From positions 1-23,948 of IMG/VR virus record IMGVR_UViG_3300017708_002438: a stretch of 23,948 nucleotides of DNA. The stretch is one strand, 5' to 3'. Numbering within the stretch: position 1 is the stretch's first letter; each line of letters starts with the position of its first letter. Of this stretch, positions 4,036 to 23,948 are shown one piece after another. The notes beneath the pieces were generated by a model that saw only the letters and a program-made list of their open reading frames with translations, did not search any database and had not been told where the DNA came from. Position numbers and translations under genes: made by a program. This DNA comes from a virus.

Positions 4036-4946
4036 CAGTCAATTTGAAGTTTCTCTAATAGTTCTTCGTTACCTACTTTAGTTAAAGTTATATATGCTTG
4101 TTGAACGGTTCTCCCGAGTTTTTCACCATCTAAGTAGTAGGTGTTGTCTTCTTTAATAATTTTTCTTCTTTTGATGAAATCACTAATTTTATTTTTAATT
4201 AGGATTTCTTCGTAATCAGTTGTCATGATAGTCTCAGCCAAGTAATCAAGGTTTCGTGAATCAACTAACCATCTTTCAAGAAGAGATAACATTACACCTT
4301 TAGTTGCACTTTGACCTCTTCTAATAGCTCCTACAAATTGTAGGTATTGCTTAAGTCTATCTGAATCTTTTGTATACATGTTACCAAACCAAGTAAGTAC
4401 AGAAAGCCTTTTCTCTGAGTTAGAAGTTTGAGCTTCAGCACTTTTTGTAGTATCAATTATAGCATATAACGAACCGTTATATCTTGGATTACTACCATCA
4501 CAATTAGGGGTAATTTGTCCTCCACGGTATGCTAAGTACAATTTAAAGTAATTGTCCATGTCCGCAGTATCTATAATAGTATTATGAGATAAATCAATAC
4601 CACAATGCTCGGAAGCTAAGAAATCTTTTTCAGTAAGATTAGGATTAGTCTTAATGTAGTTAGCGAGTTTAACCTCATACCAATCGGTAAGATTTTTTCT
4701 TTCTTTTAGAATCTTAGCAATCTCTGTTTTACTTTTACCTCTAAATTCTGAAGAATTCTCATCAAATCCTGTATCATACCTCCCTGTCTCAGGGCTACCT
4801 AAGAATAAACATCTAGCTGGTTCAGCCGTATAAGATACCATCTTATATCTACTAATCTCTCTCAATGGCTCTGGAGTAGAATCATCTACTTTTTCTACAA
4901 TACGATAAATTCTGTCTTTAGCGACTTCAAAACATTCTGAATACAT
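4035..4946 (-). CDS. Conserved-looking phage protein, 303 aa, unknown
   Basis: Begins MYSECFEVAKDRIYRIVEKV. The mix of charged helices and aromatic residues suggests a soluble globular protein. The C-terminal third (from about residue 240, DYEEILIKNKISDFIKRRKI) has a small winged-helix-like alternation of basic helices and a beta hairpin (YYLDGEKLGRTVQQAYITLT), so DNA or protein binding is conceivable. No catalytic motif, signal peptide or membrane segment is seen. It lies between the capsid region and the connector gene and overlaps the latter by one base (TGATG), so it is probably a virion or assembly factor. Function is not recognised. Confidence 0.75.
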   Translation of the reverse strand: MYSECFEVAKDRIYRIVEKVDDSTPEPLREISRYKMVSYTAEPARCLFLGSPETGRYDTGFDENSSEFRGKSKTEIAKILKERKNLTDWYEVKLANYIKTNPNLTEKDFLASEHCGIDLSHNTIIDTADMDNYFKLYLAYRGGQITPNCDGSNPRYNGSLYAIIDTTKSAEAQTSNSEKRLSVLTWFGNMYTKDSDRLKQYLQFVGAIRRGQSATKGVMLSLLERWLVDSRNLDYLAETIMTTDYEEILIKNKISDFIKRRKIIKEDNTYYLDGEKLGRTVQQAYITLTKVGNEELLEKLQID

Positions 4947-5009: not shown

Positions 5010-5195
5010 CTAGCCCCCGCAAGAAAAATTAGATTGGGATGGGTTTTGTATACCAAAACCTTGTGCTCTGTCTTTTTGAGCATCTGTCATGTAACCTCCG
5101 TGTCCCATTTTTTTATAGGCACCACCCGTACCCATTTTCTTCATCATTTTACCTCCTTGGGTCATTTTCTTTTTATTTTTGTTGCCGTATTTCAT
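5010..5195 (-). CDS. 61-aa Gly/Lys/Met-rich protein with GFGIQ motif
   Basis: A short basic protein with the spaced repeats GGKMMKKMG, GGAYKKMG and GGYMTDAQK, ending in AQGFGIQ (GFGIQ at residues 46-50) and a Ser/Asn/Cys/Gly tail. No stable fold is obvious and it is probably disordered. It lies between the capsid gene (with a G/C hairpin in the gap) and the 303-aa gene, on the same strand. GFGIQ also opens three right-arm proteins (21466, 22603, 23365), which hints at a shared binding partner. Short Gly/Lys/Met-rich proteins of this sort are common in aquatic phage genomes without known function. The position suggests a minor virion component; this is inference. Confidence 0.7.
   Translation of the reverse strand: MKYGNKNKKKMTQGGKMMKKMGTGGAYKKMGHGGYMTDAQKDRAQGFGIQNPSQSNFSCGG
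5046..5060 (-). other. GFGIQ core in the 61-aa capsid-side protein
   Basis: Codes residues 46-50 of the 61-aa protein, preceded by Ala-Gln and followed by Asn-Pro-Ser. Shares only the five-residue core with the right-arm leaders and lies near the C-terminus, not the N-terminus. Confidence 0.7.
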
Positions 5196-5248: not shown

Positions 5249-6919
5249 TTAAAACTCGTTAGTTTCGAGTTTCTCAATCATTACGACTCTAGACTTGTCT
5301 GGAATCCATGCTGACATGGAAGACATGCAGGTGAACTCTCTACCAGGCTGTGGTCGTGAGTAGTTGAAGCCTTGTTCAAATACTGGTCCGTTAGTAGAAC
5401 CGTAAGAGAAATCAGGCACATTCTTAGGCTTAACAATGTAAAGGTTACTAGTACCTTGAGAAGCATTGTCAATCTCGACACCTTTAGGTAATACACTTCT
5501 ATCGAATACATTAGAGTACATTGGGTCAGTGATATCCCACATAACCAAAGTCCAAGAACGCTTAGATAGTCCAGCAGAGTATCCTCGGCTGATGTAATCC
5601 CCAAAGCTATCATAGTCAAGAGATGGGTCGTGCTCAACTCTTACCATACCGATTCCGTTTAGGAATGCTTCACCGATAGCATATGATTGATACTGTAAGT
5701 TGTATCTGTCGCTACCCGTCAAGATTTTCACTGGAAGTGCTTCTTGGTCAACGTGTACAGGTACAGTGTTCTTGAACTCTTCTTTGAATAGCTCACGAAC
5801 TAGATTGTGTGCGTTGAAACCAGCCTTGAAGACTAATTTTCTGTCGTGAATCTGAATGGAAGTACCGTGATAGATAACCTCAGCAGCTTTTTGAATGTAC
5901 TGACGAAGCTCGTTTACGTTTTTGTAGATGAATCTATGACCTCTACGTAACTGGTGGTAAAGACCTTCGTTAACAATCTTAGAACCGTTGATTCCTGTGA
6001 TTGTAGCACCTCGGTCAAACATCATACCCATTGCAGTAAGCTTCATCAACTCAGCCATTGCAAGAGCTTCCATAATAGGCTGAACTCGAACTGTGTCACG
6101 AAGAAGTCTTCCGCTATTAGGGTTAACTTGGCCAACGAAGAAGTAATCTCCTCCTAGACGGTCTTGCATTTTCTGAATTCTTTCAGTTAAGAAAGATGCT
6201 TCTTTACCATTTACAGTAAGAACATCTGCGTAAGCAGAGTATCCAACTTGTACTGCACGGTAATCACCTAGAGTATACTGAAGTTTCACAGAGTTTTCAG
6301 AAAGACCCATCATGTTAGGAGCAGAATATTGAGTATCAAACTCACCAGCAACGTGGTCAATTTTTACATACTCAGTACCAGGCTTCAACTTCGATGCTGG
6401 GAAGTATTTACTTCTATCTCTTGTTACAAGTTGTACAGTGTGTACATAACCGTCACCCTCATCTACTACTTCTGAATCCTCGATAACAATCACTTGCTCA
6501 CCATCTACTGGGTCGTAAGTAAGAATGTCACCAGGAGAGAATGGATGCGACAACTTGATGTCAAAGTAAGAACCATCAATTCCTAAATAACTACCTTCTT
6601 CTACATTTTGTACTACGCATGGTTTTTCAATATCCATTGCGATTTCGTAATCGAAGCTACCTCTGATACCATTTACAAAGATTTTATCTGAATTACGCAG
6701 AGCATCTTTAATAAAAGGTACGTTAACGATTCGAGCATTCTCAAAAAGCTCTAACATACCTAAAGATGTTCTATCATCCACATAGTCAGAAGCTTTCAAG
6801 GCTACTGAATCTAGGTAACCGAACTGGGATTGAATGTCACTTTTATTAGTAACCCCAATCACAGTAGAGTCATTGAAGTTTGCTCCAATAAACTGTCCAT
6901 TAAAATTTTCTTTTCCCAT
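5249..6919 (-). CDS. Major capsid protein (probable)
   Basis: A 556-aa soluble protein beginning MGKENFNGQFIGANFNDSTV. It has the mixed alpha/beta, Asn/Gly/Asp-rich composition usual for HK97-fold capsids: an N-arm, a beta-rich part with HPFSPGDILTYDP (about residues 125-140), a helical spine-like segment (IMEALAMAELMKLTAMGMMF, near 285-305) and a C-terminal beta region. The case is mainly context: it follows terminase, portal and a scaffold-like acidic protein on the same strand, and is followed by a strong hairpin, as often seen after highly expressed capsid genes. Length fits crAss-like and related capsids (about 490-560 aa, from general knowledge). No separate protease is evident. An inner structural protein is the main alternative. 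Confidence 0.78.
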   Translation of the reverse strand: MGKENFNGQFIGANFNDSTVIGVTNKSDIQSQFGYLDSVALKASDYVDDRTSLGMLELFENARIVNVPFIKDALRNSDKIFVNGIRGSFDYEIAMDIEKPCVVQNVEEGSYLGIDGSYFDIKLSHPFSPGDILTYDPVDGEQVIVIEDSEVVDEGDGYVHTVQLVTRDRSKYFPASKLKPGTEYVKIDHVAGEFDTQYSAPNMMGLSENSVKLQYTLGDYRAVQVGYSAYADVLTVNGKEASFLTERIQKMQDRLGGDYFFVGQVNPNSGRLLRDTVRVQPIMEALAMAELMKLTAMGMMFDRGATITGINGSKIVNEGLYHQLRRGHRFIYKNVNELRQYIQKAAEVIYHGTSIQIHDRKLVFKAGFNAHNLVRELFKEEFKNTVPVHVDQEALPVKILTGSDRYNLQYQSYAIGEAFLNGIGMVRVEHDPSLDYDSFGDYISRGYSAGLSKRSWTLVMWDITDPMYSNVFDRSVLPKGVEIDNASQGTSNLYIVKPKNVPDFSYGSTNGPVFEQGFNYSRPQPGREFTCMSSMSAWIPDKSRVVMIEKLETNEF

Positions 6920-6944: not shown

Positions 6945-8102
6945 TTATTTAATAAAAGGATTTTTAGTAGCCTTATCTCGTGTAGGCTTAAACGAAAAAT
7001 CTTTCTTTTCAGTAGGTGTCTTTTTTGCTTTTTTAATATCCATGAACACCTTCTTTTGTACCTCGTTTTGCTTGGATGCTGTTAAATTATTAACAAAACC
7101 CTCATAGTCAGTTAGAAAACTGTAGAGCAGTACGGCTCGTTGTGGGTCATTCCTAAAAGCTAAGTAAGCTTCGTCAACTTCAGCTAATCCTGACTCCTCC
7201 TTAAGGTTGGTAAGACCTTTTACCACCCTAGTAGAGGCTCTACTATCAAAATTTGATGACTTTAAAATTGATTTGATATCTTTCTTAAAATCCTCAATAG
7301 CTTTTGTTCTTTGATTATTAGCATCTTCTTGTTGTTGTAACATTTGCTGATGCTGGCCAACAACATGATGTTGAATAGTTTCAAAGGCTGATTGAGCCTC
7401 TTCATCTAAATCCATATCCTTGGTAATACGTTGAACATGCTTATTAATTTTTTGGTCATCCCATCCTACAAAATTTTTGTAGTATGTGTAAACAGCATTA
7501 ACTTTGCCTTGGTCAGTACTAATATCTAGATTGTTGATTCGGTCAACTGCAGTTTTAGATTGATAATACTGCTCTAAATCTCCACCTGATTGCTTAAAGG
7601 CTAAAAATTCTTTTTCAGCAGGGCTGAATGATGAATATATATTTTCTACAAGTCGTTCTGACTTCCATGTGTCCTGTTGTTTTGATAACTGCTCAAAGAC
7701 ATCTTTGTCTATTTCTACGTCACCACTATTTTCAAAGTCCTCCCAAAACCCAGACTCAATTAACTTTTTAGCTACAAACTCGTAATCAAATGAATTATCA
7801 TCGGTTAGTAACGCCTCTTTAACGGCTTCTTGTGCCTGTTGAGTCTCCTCATCGCTTGATGGCGGTGTAGGAGAATCTTCAAAAGCAACTTCCCTATCTA
7901 AGATATCTTCTATCTCAATTTTACCTGAAGGAGTTGGCTCTGTGGGTGCGGGAGAAACTTTTTCGGTAGGAGTTTCTTCCTTTGTTTCTTTTTGAGGTTC
8001 TTCCTGGACCTCTGATTCAGGTTGCTTAGTTTCTTTCGAGTCCTCAAATTCTATATTAAAGGGTTTCCCGATAGTAAATGGATTTTGGCTGGTATTGTCC
8101 AT
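6945..8102 (-). CDS. Scaffold-like protein (probable capsid scaffold)
   Basis: A 385-aa protein with a strongly acidic, Pro/Glu/Thr-rich and probably disordered N-terminal third (residues 17-100), a helical middle with a Gln-rich coiled-coil-like part (about 245-285) and a basic C-terminus (about 345-385, with KKAKK and KKDFSFKPTRDK). Acidic/helical body plus basic C-terminal coat-binding tail is the classic plan of phage scaffolding proteins. It lies exactly between portal and capsid genes, where scaffolds are normally found. Curiously NPF occurs near both ends (NPFTIGKPF at the start, KNPFIK at the end). No protease motif is visible. The call is from composition and synteny. Confidence 0.72.
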   Translation of the reverse strand: MDNTSQNPFTIGKPFNIEFEDSKETKQPESEVQEEPQKETKEETPTEKVSPAPTEPTPSGKIEIEDILDREVAFEDSPTPPSSDEETQQAQEAVKEALLTDDNSFDYEFVAKKLIESGFWEDFENSGDVEIDKDVFEQLSKQQDTWKSERLVENIYSSFSPAEKEFLAFKQSGGDLEQYYQSKTAVDRINNLDISTDQGKVNAVYTYYKNFVGWDDQKINKHVQRITKDMDLDEEAQSAFETIQHHVVGQHQQMLQQQEDANNQRTKAIEDFKKDIKSILKSSNFDSRASTRVVKGLTNLKEESGLAEVDEAYLAFRNDPQRAVLLYSFLTDYEGFVNNLTASKQNEVQKKVFMDIKKAKKTPTEKKDFSFKPTRDKATKNPFIK

Positions 8103-20430: not shown

Positions 20431-20454
20431 AAATAAAATTAAAAACGAGAAATA

Positions 20455-21159
20455 ATGCCTAGTTACGATATATCGATTAAAAAAGAAAACCTAGTAAAGC
20501 ACGGATGTGCTGTGCCCGCAGGGTACGTAAGATTAAGTTCAGTGATAGCAAGATTACCTGCATTTCGAGACGAGGCAGCGGCAAGAGCCGCAGGACTAAA
20601 AGACTGTGATATGTATTCAATTGGTAGTACTAACGGTATTGCTATTTTGGGTACAGGAGGTACAGGAGGTACAGGAACAGGAGATAGAGACTTTACAAAT
20701 GCTCTTGACATTGCTATTCCTCAAGAAGAAGTTGTAAAGTATGGTTGCCAAGTGCCAAATGGTTATGTAAGGTTCACATCTGTTTACGGAAGTTTACCTG
20801 TATACGGTACTGAAGCAGCTGCCGTAGGGGACGGACTTAAAAAATGTGACCCTTATCTTTCGGCACTTACTGGAGACTTACAGCTAGTAACTGGTAATTT
20901 TGGTTCCAATAATAATGGGGCAACGGAAAAGAAAGTACCTTACTTTGATGTTGCTATTAAAAAAGAGCAAATTCTATATAGAAACTGCAATCTTCCAAAA
21001 GGATACATAAAACTTAGCCAAGTATTAGCTTCATTACCTGTTTACTCTTCAGCCGAGGCAAAGACTCTTCTACCTGAGTGTGGAGGGTATCTTCGTGTTA
21101 ACACAGCAGGTAAAATTACTGATGGAAACGTTTCTTTCAACAGACAGGTTATACCTTAA
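20455..21159 (+). CDS. Triple-repeat protein, Cys-Pro-Gly-Tyr repeats (234 aa)
   Basis: Three tandem repeats of exactly 80 residues: first Cys at 18, 98 and 178, each followed by PxGY(V/I)(R/K)(L/F) and, about 33 residues later, a second Cys (51, 131, 209). Each starts with a D(I/V)(S/A)I(K/P) strand: YDISIK, LDIAIP, FDVAIK. Gly/Thr- and Asn/Gly-rich linkers join them (GGTGGTGTGDRD and NFGSNNNGATEKK), typical of surface-exposed fibre modules. The same motif lies at the N-terminus of the left-arm partial protein (1-756). Two Cys per repeat may pair in disulfides or bind metal. No signal peptide. A virion decoration, fibre or adhesin role is inferred; the family is unknown to me. Confidence 0.85.
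   Translation: MPSYDISIKKENLVKHGCAVPAGYVRLSSVIARLPAFRDEAAARAAGLKDCDMYSIGSTNGIAILGTGGTGGTGTGDRDFTNALDIAIPQEEVVKYGCQVPNGYVRFTSVYGSLPVYGTEAAAVGDGLKKCDPYLSALTGDLQLVTGNFGSNNNGATEKKVPYFDVAIKKEQILYRNCNLPKGYIKLSQVLASLPVYSSAEAKTLLPECGGYLRVNTAGKITDGNVSFNRQVIP
20650..20676 (+). repeat. Three tandem GGTACAGGA copies in the linker
   Basis: GGTACAGGA occurs three times in a row, coding GTGGTGGTG, the flexible linker after repeat 1 of the triple-repeat protein. Expansion by slippage would lengthen the linker in frame. Confidence 0.9.
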
Positions 21160-21465: not shown

Positions 21466-22443
21466 ATGGGATTTAGAAAAAGAGAATCAAACCAAGAAGG
21501 ATTTGGTATTCAAAGAAACGAAAAAATGAAAGCAGGAAGCTCAGTACCTAAGAAGCCTAAAAAAAAGGCTAAGAAAAAAGCTGTAACTAAAAAGCAGGGT
21601 GAGTTTGGTGTAAGTGTCACTCTTCCAAAAATTGGAGGGAGAAGAGGTAGAATTAAAAGAGCATTTAGAGATGACATATTAGAAGCTATTGACGCAGGTG
21701 CATCTATTACTGATTTCAGTACGGAAGAATTAGCTTTTGCATTTGGTCCAAGAAAAGCTGCTAATATTATTGCACAAATAGGTGGAGCTGATAGTATTAC
21801 TATGACTAATCAGCAAGGCCAAGGCCAAGTAGCTACAGGAGGTAGTGCAGTGGCCACAGGAGGTAGTGCAAATGCAAGTGCAGAAGCAAATCCTAACATA
21901 GATGTAGATGCAGATGCCACATTCGAATCAATGGATAATCCAATGATGCTTAAAACAATAGAAGATATGCCAGTAAGTGGAGGTAGGACTGCCCCTGCTT
22001 TACCAGGAGGAGGAAGCGGAAACATTATCATGACCCCAGAAGGTCCAATGATGGTAGACCCTGTTACTGGTCGCCTTCTGCCTATACAAGGAAACCCTTT
22101 CCCCCTTCCTGGTGGATATGGGGCTGGTCGTCCTGTGCAATTACCTTTTGTTCCAGGAATTGACCCAGTAACAGGCATGCCTTTTAACCAAGGAGGAGGA
22201 ATGTATGATGAGTATGGAATGCCTCTTATAATTGATGACATTGGAATAAGAGATAATGTTAGAATAGGTGACGGATACGGGTTTGAAGATGGAGGAATGA
22301 AGTATCAAGGGTCGATGGTAAAACTTCCTACTAAAGGCGGTAAAGAACAGCTGAAAGCAGGTGGTACTAAGAAGAAGAAGAAGAAGGGTAAAGTAATGAA
22401 TAAAAGAAAATCAAATAGATACTCAAGTAAATATGGCTACTAA
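21466..22443 (+). CDS. GFGIQ-leader protein 1, basic ends and Gly/Pro-rich body (325 aa)
   Basis: The N-terminus has SNQEGFGIQRN (residues 8-18), then a Lys-rich stretch (28-43) and KKQG (42-45). A helical part (about 60-105, RRGRIKRAFRDDILEAIDAG) might be a small helix-turn-helix. The body (120-250) is Gly/Pro/Met-rich with repeats such as VDPVTGR and IDPVTGM, and tandem VATGGSA. The end has DGGMKYQGSMVK (275-286) and a poly-Lys tail with KSNRYSSKYGY. Leader and basic segments recur in the genes at 22603 and 23365. It looks mostly disordered and may be an internal or decorating virion protein; no enzyme motif. The leader before the ATG shares AGAAATAATG with gene 20455. Confidence 0.8.
   Translation: MGFRKRESNQEGFGIQRNEKMKAGSSVPKKPKKKAKKKAVTKKQGEFGVSVTLPKIGGRRGRIKRAFRDDILEAIDAGASITDFSTEELAFAFGPRKAANIIAQIGGADSITMTNQQGQGQVATGGSAVATGGSANASAEANPNIDVDADATFESMDNPMMLKTIEDMPVSGGRTAPALPGGGSGNIIMTPEGPMMVDPVTGRLLPIQGNPFPLPGGYGAGRPVQLPFVPGIDPVTGMPFNQGGGMYDEYGMPLIIDDIGIRDNVRIGDGYGFEDGGMKYQGSMVKLPTKGGKEQLKAGGTKKKKKKGKVMNKRKSNRYSSKYGY
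21487..21519 (+). other. Leader motif SNQEGFGIQRN, copy 1
   Basis: Codes residues 8-18 of the 325-aa protein. Codons differ from the other copies at third positions and in the Arg codon family, so the peptide, not the DNA, is being kept. Confidence 0.85.
21835..21870 (+). repeat. Two direct copies of ACAGGAGGTAGTGCA
   Basis: The 15-base unit occurs at 21835-21849 and 21856-21870, coding the doubled VATGGSA in the 325-aa protein; a likely product of local duplication. Confidence 0.85.
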
Positions 22444-22603
22444 TAAAAAAAGAGTTCCAGCGCCCAAGGGGTTTCACTGGATGAAAGAAAGAGGAGGTTC
22501 ACTAAAATTAATGAAAGACCCTTCGACTGGATATAAAAAGCATCCTGGTTCGTCCAAGTATGCTGAGTTTGGTATACAGAAGGTGCATAAAAAGAAAAAG
22601 TAA
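22433..22603 (+). CDS. 56-aa small protein ending in EFGIQK and a Lys tail
   Basis: ATG 22433 overlaps the previous gene by 11 bases; the stop (22601-22603) overlaps the next ATG (TAATG). It begins MATNKKRVPAPKGFHWMKER and has the plan PAPKGFHWMK, then KLMK, then a Pro/His turn, then AEFGIQKVHKKKK. That resembles a widespread short phage family whose C-terminus is xxF(K/G)(V/I)QKxH, so the EFGIQK here may come from that family, not from the GFGIQ leaders of its neighbours. Very basic; a nucleic-acid or virion role is plausible but unproved. Confidence 0.65.
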   Translation: MATNKKRVPAPKGFHWMKERGGSLKLMKDPSTGYKKHPGSSKYAEFGIQKVHKKKK

Positions 22604-23286
22604 TGAAAAAGTCACCATTCAGGAGTTCAAGCTCTAATCAAGAAGGATTTGGCATTGAACGTAATAATAAAAGAAAGCCTTCTAAGAAAAGGTCTACTAA
22701 GCGTAAAAAGCCTGTTGCTAAGAAGCAAGGTACATCGATTGCTAGAAAAACGGAAGACAAAGATTTAATTGTACAAAACTTTGGAGATAATGTATTTGCT
22801 GGTATTAAGACAAAAGCAAATCCAGAAGGTAATGCAGACCTTGGAAGTGGTAATAAGGCTCCACAACAGATAACATATGAAGTTAATCCTGATGGTAGTT
22901 ACAGACAAATAGTTTCGACAAAAGGATATTACGACAGTAATTTAGGCGAATATATTCCTGATAACGTTGTTATTGGTGAGGGTATGAATATTATGGACAC
23001 AAGGCTTGTCAATCCTGTTACAGGAATGCCTGTAGGAGAGGAGCTATTTGGAGATAATCCTGGAAATTATTTCGGTACTTATCAAGGAGCCATGGAAGGT
23101 CCTGTTTTCCAATCTTTTTCAGGCTCACCAATGGATATGAGGGAAATAGCAAGACAAGAAGCCTTAAAAAAATTAGAGCAAGGTAACAAAAATGTATCCT
23201 TTCAACCCCCATATCAATTAGCTGCTATAAAACTGTCTGATACTTTAAAAGAAGCTAAAGAGCAAGGTAACTTTACGAAAGAATGA
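22603..23286 (+). CDS. GFGIQ-leader protein 2, basic N-terminus (227 aa)
   Basis: Residues 1-21 read MKKSPFR then SSSSNQEGFGIERN (the leader at 11-21), followed by a Lys/Arg-rich stretch (23-38) and AKKQG (39-43). The remainder (50-227) is polar and Asn/Gly/Asp/Glu-rich, with NPVTGMPVG (137-145), close to DPVTGM in the 325-aa protein. Little secondary structure is evident until a helix near 178-190 (MREIARQEALKK). Leader codons differ from those in the sister genes though the amino acids are the same. It starts in the stop of the 56-aa gene (TAATG) and its end overlaps the next ORF as ATGA. A virion or DNA-binding role is inferred. Confidence 0.8.
   Translation: MKKSPFRSSSSNQEGFGIERNNKRKPSKKRSTKRKKPVAKKQGTSIARKTEDKDLIVQNFGDNVFAGIKTKANPEGNADLGSGNKAPQQITYEVNPDGSYRQIVSTKGYYDSNLGEYIPDNVVIGEGMNIMDTRLVNPVTGMPVGEELFGDNPGNYFGTYQGAMEGPVFQSFSGSPMDMREIARQEALKKLEQGNKNVSFQPPYQLAAIKLSDTLKEAKEQGNFTKE
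22633..22665 (+). other. Leader motif SNQEGFGIERN, copy 2
   Basis: Codes residues 11-21 of the 227-aa protein; Gln is replaced by Glu at the ninth position. Arg is CGT here against AGA in copy 1 and CGC in copy 3. Confidence 0.85.
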
Positions 23287-23387
23287 TTAGGACTTTCACA
23301 TATACTGCCGAGGAGATAATGTATAACACTGTTACATTTACTTGTAACGTAAATATTGTAAGAGATGAAGAAGAGAAGCCCTTTTAA
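23283..23387 (+). CDS. 34-aa micro-ORF overlapping the next gene
   Basis: ATG 23283 overlaps the TGA of the previous gene (ATGA); TAA is at 23385-23387, and the next gene starts at 23365 in another frame, a 23-base overlap. The peptide (MIRTFTYTAEEIMYNTVTFT and on) is threonine-rich then acidic (RDEEEKPF). It may be real or a coupling leader; the ATGA link is the main support. Function unknown. Confidence 0.4.
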   Translation: MIRTFTYTAEEIMYNTVTFTCNVNIVRDEEEKPF

Positions 23388-23948
23388 ACAGACTAGTTCT
23401 AACCAGGAGGGGTTTGGCATTCAACGCAACGTCAAACGCAAACCTGTGAGAAAAAAAACTAAGAAGAAATCCGTTACTAAAAAACAGGGAGAAACTGATT
23501 CTATTAAAACAATAAATAAATCAAAGTATACCCTTTTGTCTGAGTTATCTGACCAAGAATTAGTACCCTTCTTAGCATCTATGCCTGTGGTAAGCCAAGA
23601 CGACCTTAATTACCTTACAACATCAGGACGATTAAATAATTTATTTACTACTCAATTTAATAATGACGACCCAGTGTTCGGGGAACAATTACAGGCTACC
23701 TTCGATAAATACGGTTCAGTGGTGAAACAAATGGATGGAGGATATAAGTATCAAGGTGACACAGGTGCATTGTATTCTGAGAATCCTATGTTTCAAGATT
23801 ATAAAGAGCAAGTATACGGAACAGGACCTGGTCTTTATGGTGGCAATCTTGATGGACGTACAACACAAAGTGGAAGTGGTTTCTTCAAACCATTTCCAGA
23901 TGCTCCTGATTTAAGTATGTATGCAGGGGACCAAAAAGGTTATTCCTC
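23365..23948 (+). CDS. GFGIQ-leader protein 3, partial at the right edge
   Basis: ATG 23365, open to the window end (194 full codons). It begins MKKRSPFKQTSSNQEGFGIQ, i.e. nearly the same as the 227-aa protein (MKK(R)SPF(R/K), then SSNQEGFGI), then a Lys/Arg stretch and TKKQGE (38-43). Further on a helical part (LSELSDQELVPFLASMPVVS) and the phrase MDGGYKYQGDTGALY (close to DGGMKYQG in the 325-aa protein), then a Gly/Tyr-rich region. The C-terminus lies outside. A third member of the leader family, probably a virion or structural accessory protein (inference). Confidence 0.78.
   Translation, partial: MKKRSPFKQTSSNQEGFGIQRNVKRKPVRKKTKKKSVTKKQGETDSIKTINKSKYTLLSELSDQELVPFLASMPVVSQDDLNYLTTSGRLNNLFTTQFNNDDPVFGEQLQATFDKYGSVVKQMDGGYKYQGDTGALYSENPMFQDYKEQVYGTGPGLYGGNLDGRTTQSGSGFFKPFPDAPDLSMYAGDQKGYS
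23398..23430 (+). other. Leader motif SNQEGFGIQRN, copy 3
   Basis: Codes residues 12-22 of the partial protein at the right edge. Identical in amino acids to copy 1 but with CAG, GAG and GGG where copy 1 has CAA, GAA and GGA. Confidence 0.85.

Follow-up and report, generated by a model that had tools for sequence, protein, structure and literature searches.

To our knowledge, the entry of proteins into phage heads is understood for few systems, namely T4, P22, T7 and crAss001. The T4 internal proteins IPI to IPIII are small and basic, with divergent bodies and one short terminal peptide that is tied to the scaffold core, and the set of internal proteins varies among close phages (PMC9026906). 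Encapsulin cargo-loading peptides are likewise short, may be N- or C-terminal, and are found on differing proteins encoded beside the gene for an HK97-fold shell (PMC7355545). In crAss001, gp45, gp46 and the RNA polymerase-associated proteins are cargo stored in the virion, are 60–277 kDa in size and are mostly helical (PMC10172136).

The stretch of DNA analysed here (the window, 23.9 kb in all) represents part of the genome of a marine phage whose relatives include the csAss, Lightbulbvirus and crAss phages. Its terminase large subunit, portal and capsid proteins placed it among the relatives of Cellulophaga phi4:1, phi17:2 and csAssE-Sib, with a more distant relationship to Crassvirales. The clade used for comparison consisted of fifteen contigs with terminases 82–100% identical; most of the related records are fragments, and ORFs were called mechanically.

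A leader peptide on three neighbouring proteins

The original prediction was that three ORFs starting at 21466, 22603 and 23365 share a bipartite leader on bodies that otherwise differ. These encode P1 (21466..22443, + strand, 325 aa, pI 9.8), P2 (22603..23286, + strand, 227 aa) and P3 (23365..23948, + strand), which is cut by the window end after 194 aa and is complete at 281 aa in contig L040 (2710–3552). The N-termini read MGFRKRESNQEGFGIQRNEKMK...KKQG in P1, MKKSPFRSSSSNQEGFGIERNNKRK...KKQG in P2 and MKKRSPFKQTSSNQEGFGIQRNVKRK...KKQG in P3. In P1 the tag SNQEGFGIQRN (residues 8–18, 21487..21519) is followed by a Lys/Arg-rich run to KKQG (residues 19–45, 21520..21600). The tag of P2, KKSPFRSSSSNQEGFGIERN (22606..22662), consists of an SPF half, eight residues and a GFGIE half, with the core SNQEGFGIERN at residues 10–20, and is followed by the Lys/Arg-rich run at 22663..22731. 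P3 carries KRSPFKQTSSNQEGFGIQRN (23371..23427), with SNQEGFGIQRN at residues 11–21, and the run at 23428..23490; all of these features are on the + strand. KKQG occupies residues 42–45, 40–43 and 39–42 in P1, P2 and P3, respectively. The sequence [KR]SPF lies exactly 8 residues ahead of GFGI in P2 and P3 and is absent from P1. Disorder was predicted over most of the length of P1, with a helical stretch at residues 60–108.

Both parts of the prediction were borne out. Leader-to-leader alignments scored 106–137, far above the shuffled sequences (averaging about 34, with maxima of 60–74 over 2000 shuffles), while body-to-body scores of 39–45 lay inside the shuffled range, being reached by 151, 53 and 40 of 500 shuffles, and the three proteins could not be aligned over their full lengths. 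Different codons were used at identical leader residues in 8 of 14 cases for P1 and P2, 12 of 15 for P2 and P3, and 6 of 12 for P1 and P3, indicating that the leader copies are not recent DNA duplications. Selection at the level of the peptide, which had been claimed from the codon differences, is the natural reading. In the nearest contigs, all of the 22 leader residues of P1 were kept (100%) against 48–76% of the body, and the P2 leader was 95–100% kept against 63–85% for the bodies. Neither of the two outcomes that the original prediction had named as refuting it was therefore seen.

A search of viral contigs with the exact leader returned 24 stretches. It was present as a leader in only three contigs beyond the window, making four contigs in total with the exact leader; the other stretches were out of frame or in unrelated sequence. 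Among these others, a small unrelated phage protein of approximately 100 aa ending in ANQEGFGIGxGLG was found in L045, L047, L048, L050, L056, L061, L065 and L068, and its NQEGFGI match looks coincidental, though it recurs in several contigs. In the 92-kb and 90-kb relatives, P1–P3 were absent from the same place, and the flanking 52-aa and 56-aa ORFs were present.

A 56-aa basic ORF (22433..22603, + strand) with the C-terminal sequence ...AEFGIQKVHKKKK shares bases with both the 3′ end of the P1 gene and the 5′ end of the P2 gene. It is possibly a weak relative of the tag; its FGIQ is treated as doubtful because relatives read FPIQ or IGIQ. The start of P2 overlaps the preceding stop (TAATG), and this tight packing suggests joint expression. 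On the 3′ side of P3, L040 contains a 97-aa HNH-nuclease-like ORF (EVDHKKPLSKGGTNSKKNL) that is kept in most relatives and may help to move cargo genes. Just before the leader locus is a 234-aa protein (20455–21159, + strand) containing three repeats of IxxExVxxxGCxxPxGYVRxxSVxxxLPxY. The start regions of its gene (20440–20457) and of P1 (21451–21468) are near-identical, with the form AAAA[CG][GT]AGAAATAATG. An ORF of the structural region (1–756, − strand) opens with a similar IxxExVxxxGC... unit, and the unit recurs in relatives, at 4945 and 7836 in L032, which suggests a shared virion-surface or assembly domain.

A wider two-part tag at two variable sites

Comparison across the clade revealed a wider tag composed of two elements, [KR][SN]PF and G[FMH]G[IVT][QE], that can swap places, lie 3–8 residues apart and have Lys/Arg-rich flanks, although these motif classes were partly defined after viewing the same sequences. 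The SNQEGFGI[QE]RN leader is recognisable as a local form of it. Within the clade the tag was essentially confined to small basic proteins (56–396 aa, pI 9.4–11.7) at two hypervariable sites, namely the leader locus and a slot immediately 3′ of the major capsid gene. In the window, the major capsid protein, identified by homology and here the proposed docking partner, is encoded at 5249..6919 (− strand), and the downstream slot holds a 61-aa Lys/Gly-rich ORF (5010..5195, − strand) with the sequence ...QGFGIQNPSQSNFSCGG and a tag in reversed order, GFGIQNPSQSNF (5025–5060, − strand). Among the clade members examinable on both sides, the slot was filled by one, two or three small Lys/Gly-rich ORFs. 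These differ from phage to phage, and the bodies change while the capsid proteins stay 92–99% identical. Most slot ORFs carried a version of the tag (for example GFGVQEMGGKKSPFRG*, FGIQNGGRSPFS*, GFGIQNPSSSPF, GFGVENGSKSNF, SPFANPMDQHGHGVQR or MRSPFSNPQGDGTHGIS); a few, such as the ORF in L005, retained only fragments of it.

The tag was found at the N-terminus of P2, P3, the DUF5824 proteins, a 90-aa protein in L026 and a 152-aa protein in L218, with the GFGIQ half alone in P1, and also at C-termini and in mid-protein positions. The bodies beneath it were of several kinds, namely disordered, DUF5824 and weakly VP2-like. The last is the 90-aa protein (L026, 19158–19427, − strand), whose body resembled the Fusellovirus VP2 capsid family with an E value of 1.3e-4, which falls below the curated cut-off. 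P1–P3 had no match in PHROGs or Pfam. In four relatives a DUF5824 protein with a start resembling MRKSPFTSQYADGSGMGIQKYKKGGK is encoded at the leader locus instead, the body of one being identified as this domain (PF19141) with an E value of 1.4e-11, and one of these relatives also had MAKKSPFTNPKGDGIHGIGG on a different body. P2, P3 and the DUF5824 proteins agree in the eight-residue spacing from SPF to the glycine. The tag was present at four of 79 DUF5824 loci, all four in the clade. Outside the clade the same domain occurs untagged, at each of the 75 loci found. No papers about DUF5824 were found. In L042 (1153–1467) a DUF5824 gene and an upstream 70-aa ORF (YKAAPGSAREKMIRKAGKLYREGK...RMEKK) are separate neighbours, and the two are fused into one protein in many other phages.

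A model of the bipartite tag scored the tagged proteins at 28.9–38 bits, against 20.2 for the best other ORF among 451 clade ORFs and at most 20.8 for shuffled sequences. Since it was trained on the tagged proteins, it gauges how distinct they are and does not count as independent discovery of the tag. P1 was borderline (21.1 bits), reflecting its missing SPF half. DNA patterns of fixed spacing, built for both orders of the tag, recovered clade members only, plus chance matches that included proteins resembling RNA-phage maturation proteins. A 1021-aa low-complexity protein in L033 (10468–13530, + strand), which starts MAQEFKRKNAPQYKDGGGYFKHQMISPFFGVSNTPVFGVSQ and is found among giant ORFs, may be a large protein with a related motif.

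Hence, the claim of an N-terminal tag stood as far as a selected leader on unrelated bodies is concerned. The motif also occurs elsewhere than at N-termini, and the SPF half had been missed. This distribution bears on two other explanations. One is that the leader is a propeptide cut by a prohead protease at maturation, like the T4 capsid-targeting sequences, and several basic proteins with a short segment at the N-terminus do recall the T4 internal proteins (PMC9026906). However, tags at C-terminal and mid-protein positions would not be removed as leaders. Peptidase_S78 and S77 had no match in six related records, a weak negative given that these are fragments and that other proteases are possible. 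We regard cleavage as extremely improbable. The other explanation is that P1–P3 are old tandem paralogues in which an N-terminal nucleic-acid-binding segment was conserved for its own sake while the disordered bodies drifted. The three are adjacent, basic and identical in the order of their leader parts, and their bodies have tiny fragments such as PVTGMP in common. However, the motif is also C-terminal and order-reversed, it occurs at a different locus on bodies of unrelated kinds, DUF5824 among them, and its SPF half sits on an acidic protein (see below), so that simple drift among paralogues appears rather unlikely.

The SPF half on a scaffold-like protein

Between the portal and capsid genes of the window is a gene (6945..8102, − strand) for a 385-aa acidic protein (pI 4.7) predicted to have a helical body and disordered ends. 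These features and the position of the gene are those of a scaffold, which the protein looks like and is inferred to be. Its fold resembles those of proteins of phi17:2, phi14:2 and cr116_1. The phi4:1 homologue, gp065, has no MS/MS virion note and the neighbouring portal and capsid genes carry them, an indirect sign that would fit a scaffold leaving the particle at maturation. A profile of the scaffold-like protein found nothing useful among PDB sequences, and the matches from VIA-align against solved structures were all of a generic helical kind, with Z no higher than 5.6. Searches for csAss and for a Crassvirales scaffold turned up nothing relevant.

The N-terminus of the 385-aa protein contains QNPFTIGKPFNIE (about 8049–8087, − strand) and its C-terminus KNPFIK (6948–6965, − strand). 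Relatives carry the same ends, one of them with NTSPFT*, and the C-terminal NPF is also present in L239. Across eight sequences with identities as low as 35%, residues P8 and F9 and the C-terminal P382 did not vary, although the regions around them are poorly conserved. When both ends of each ORF were scored with a model of the SPF half trained without the scaffold, the scaffold-like protein ranked first or second in seven of seven records. In G015 it was first of 214 and none of 42,800 shuffles reached its score; in G016, the most distant record, its score was not significant. The full bipartite model gave no significant match to the scaffold-like protein, and the likeness is therefore claimed for the [KR][SN]PF half only. 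G015, a long record outside the tagged clade, has the scaffold ends and no tagged protein was found in it, suggesting that the scaffold motif came first. In the examples read from more distant phages (L085–L112), neither the scaffold ends nor the basic-protein slot was found.

The sharing of the SPF half with the scaffold-like protein, together with the tagged ORFs adjoining the capsid gene, also argues against a tag that targets a host or replication structure, such as the nucleoid or a phage factory, and not the virion. The leader genes lie outside the structural gene block, on the same strand as the DNA-metabolism genes and following them, and the bodies are basic, as such a role might lead one to expect, yet we consider it very improbable. 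Docking in the tail offers the main rival partner, the tail barrel. The ring protein 1 orthologues (CrAss_Ring_1) end in GFGT[FM]QNPNP[FY]RF, close to GFGIQNPSSSPF, so that a tail component could be the partner; the tag would then mimic this C-terminus and dock to the tail barrel or portal, and the tagged proteins would be cargo stored there. In crAss001 the cargo protein gp45 does bind ring proteins inside the tail and portal (PMC10172136). However, the ring protein matches at one end and the scaffold-like protein at two, the ring protein end varies (NPYRF in G001 and ...AAFNPNSF in G015), and many tagged proteins are encoded beside the capsid gene. This makes docking in the tail decidedly unlikely.

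A proposed capsid-docking role

Of the readings put forward in the original prediction, the best supported is that of a virion- or prohead-targeting signal, or of a docking motif for a shared partner, because the motif occurs on basic proteins encoded 3′ of the capsid gene and half of it on the ends of the scaffold-like protein. The propeptide reading did not find support, as no S78 or S77 gene was detected in the six related records and the motif is also C-terminal. That the tag is a capsid-loading address, with its SPF half copying the terminal [KR]NPF of the scaffold-like protein, is in our view evenly poised between right and wrong. The fuller version, in which a modular and half scaffold-derived address would allow basic proteins to be swapped through two hypervariable cargo sites, is put forward more tentatively. 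Tagged proteins would be recruited to the procapsid where the scaffold ends dock, either at the capsid inner face or at the portal, or alternatively via the scaffold itself, and would enter together with the scaffold. The basic bodies would remain inside the head on the packaged DNA and might be ejected along with it. If correct, this would explain the fast exchange of injected or DNA-binding proteins in a crAss-related lineage, and would provide a sequence rule for predicting the virion cargo of uncultured phages and possibly a handle for loading foreign proteins. The tag thus offers a candidate function, testable by proteomics, for a set of otherwise unannotated ORFs.

We propose, by analogy, that the tag works like the T4 capsid-targeting sequences. 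The likeness lies in a short peptide common to several small, basic and divergent proteins. The tag described here differs in being SPF/GFGIQ-like, in occurring at either end, in both orders and in mid-protein, in being half-shared with the ends of a scaffold-like protein, and in that no S77 or S78 protease was found and packaging is a proposal. Encapsulin cargo loading is similar in layout, in that most clade contigs have tagged ORFs adjoining the major capsid gene on its 3′ side; however, the leader locus is approximately 16 kb from the capsid gene, this is a tailed phage and binding of the tag to the shell is putative. Relative to the large helical cargo of crAss001, the tagged proteins are of a different type, being 56–396 aa long and basic, with P1 predicted to be largely disordered.
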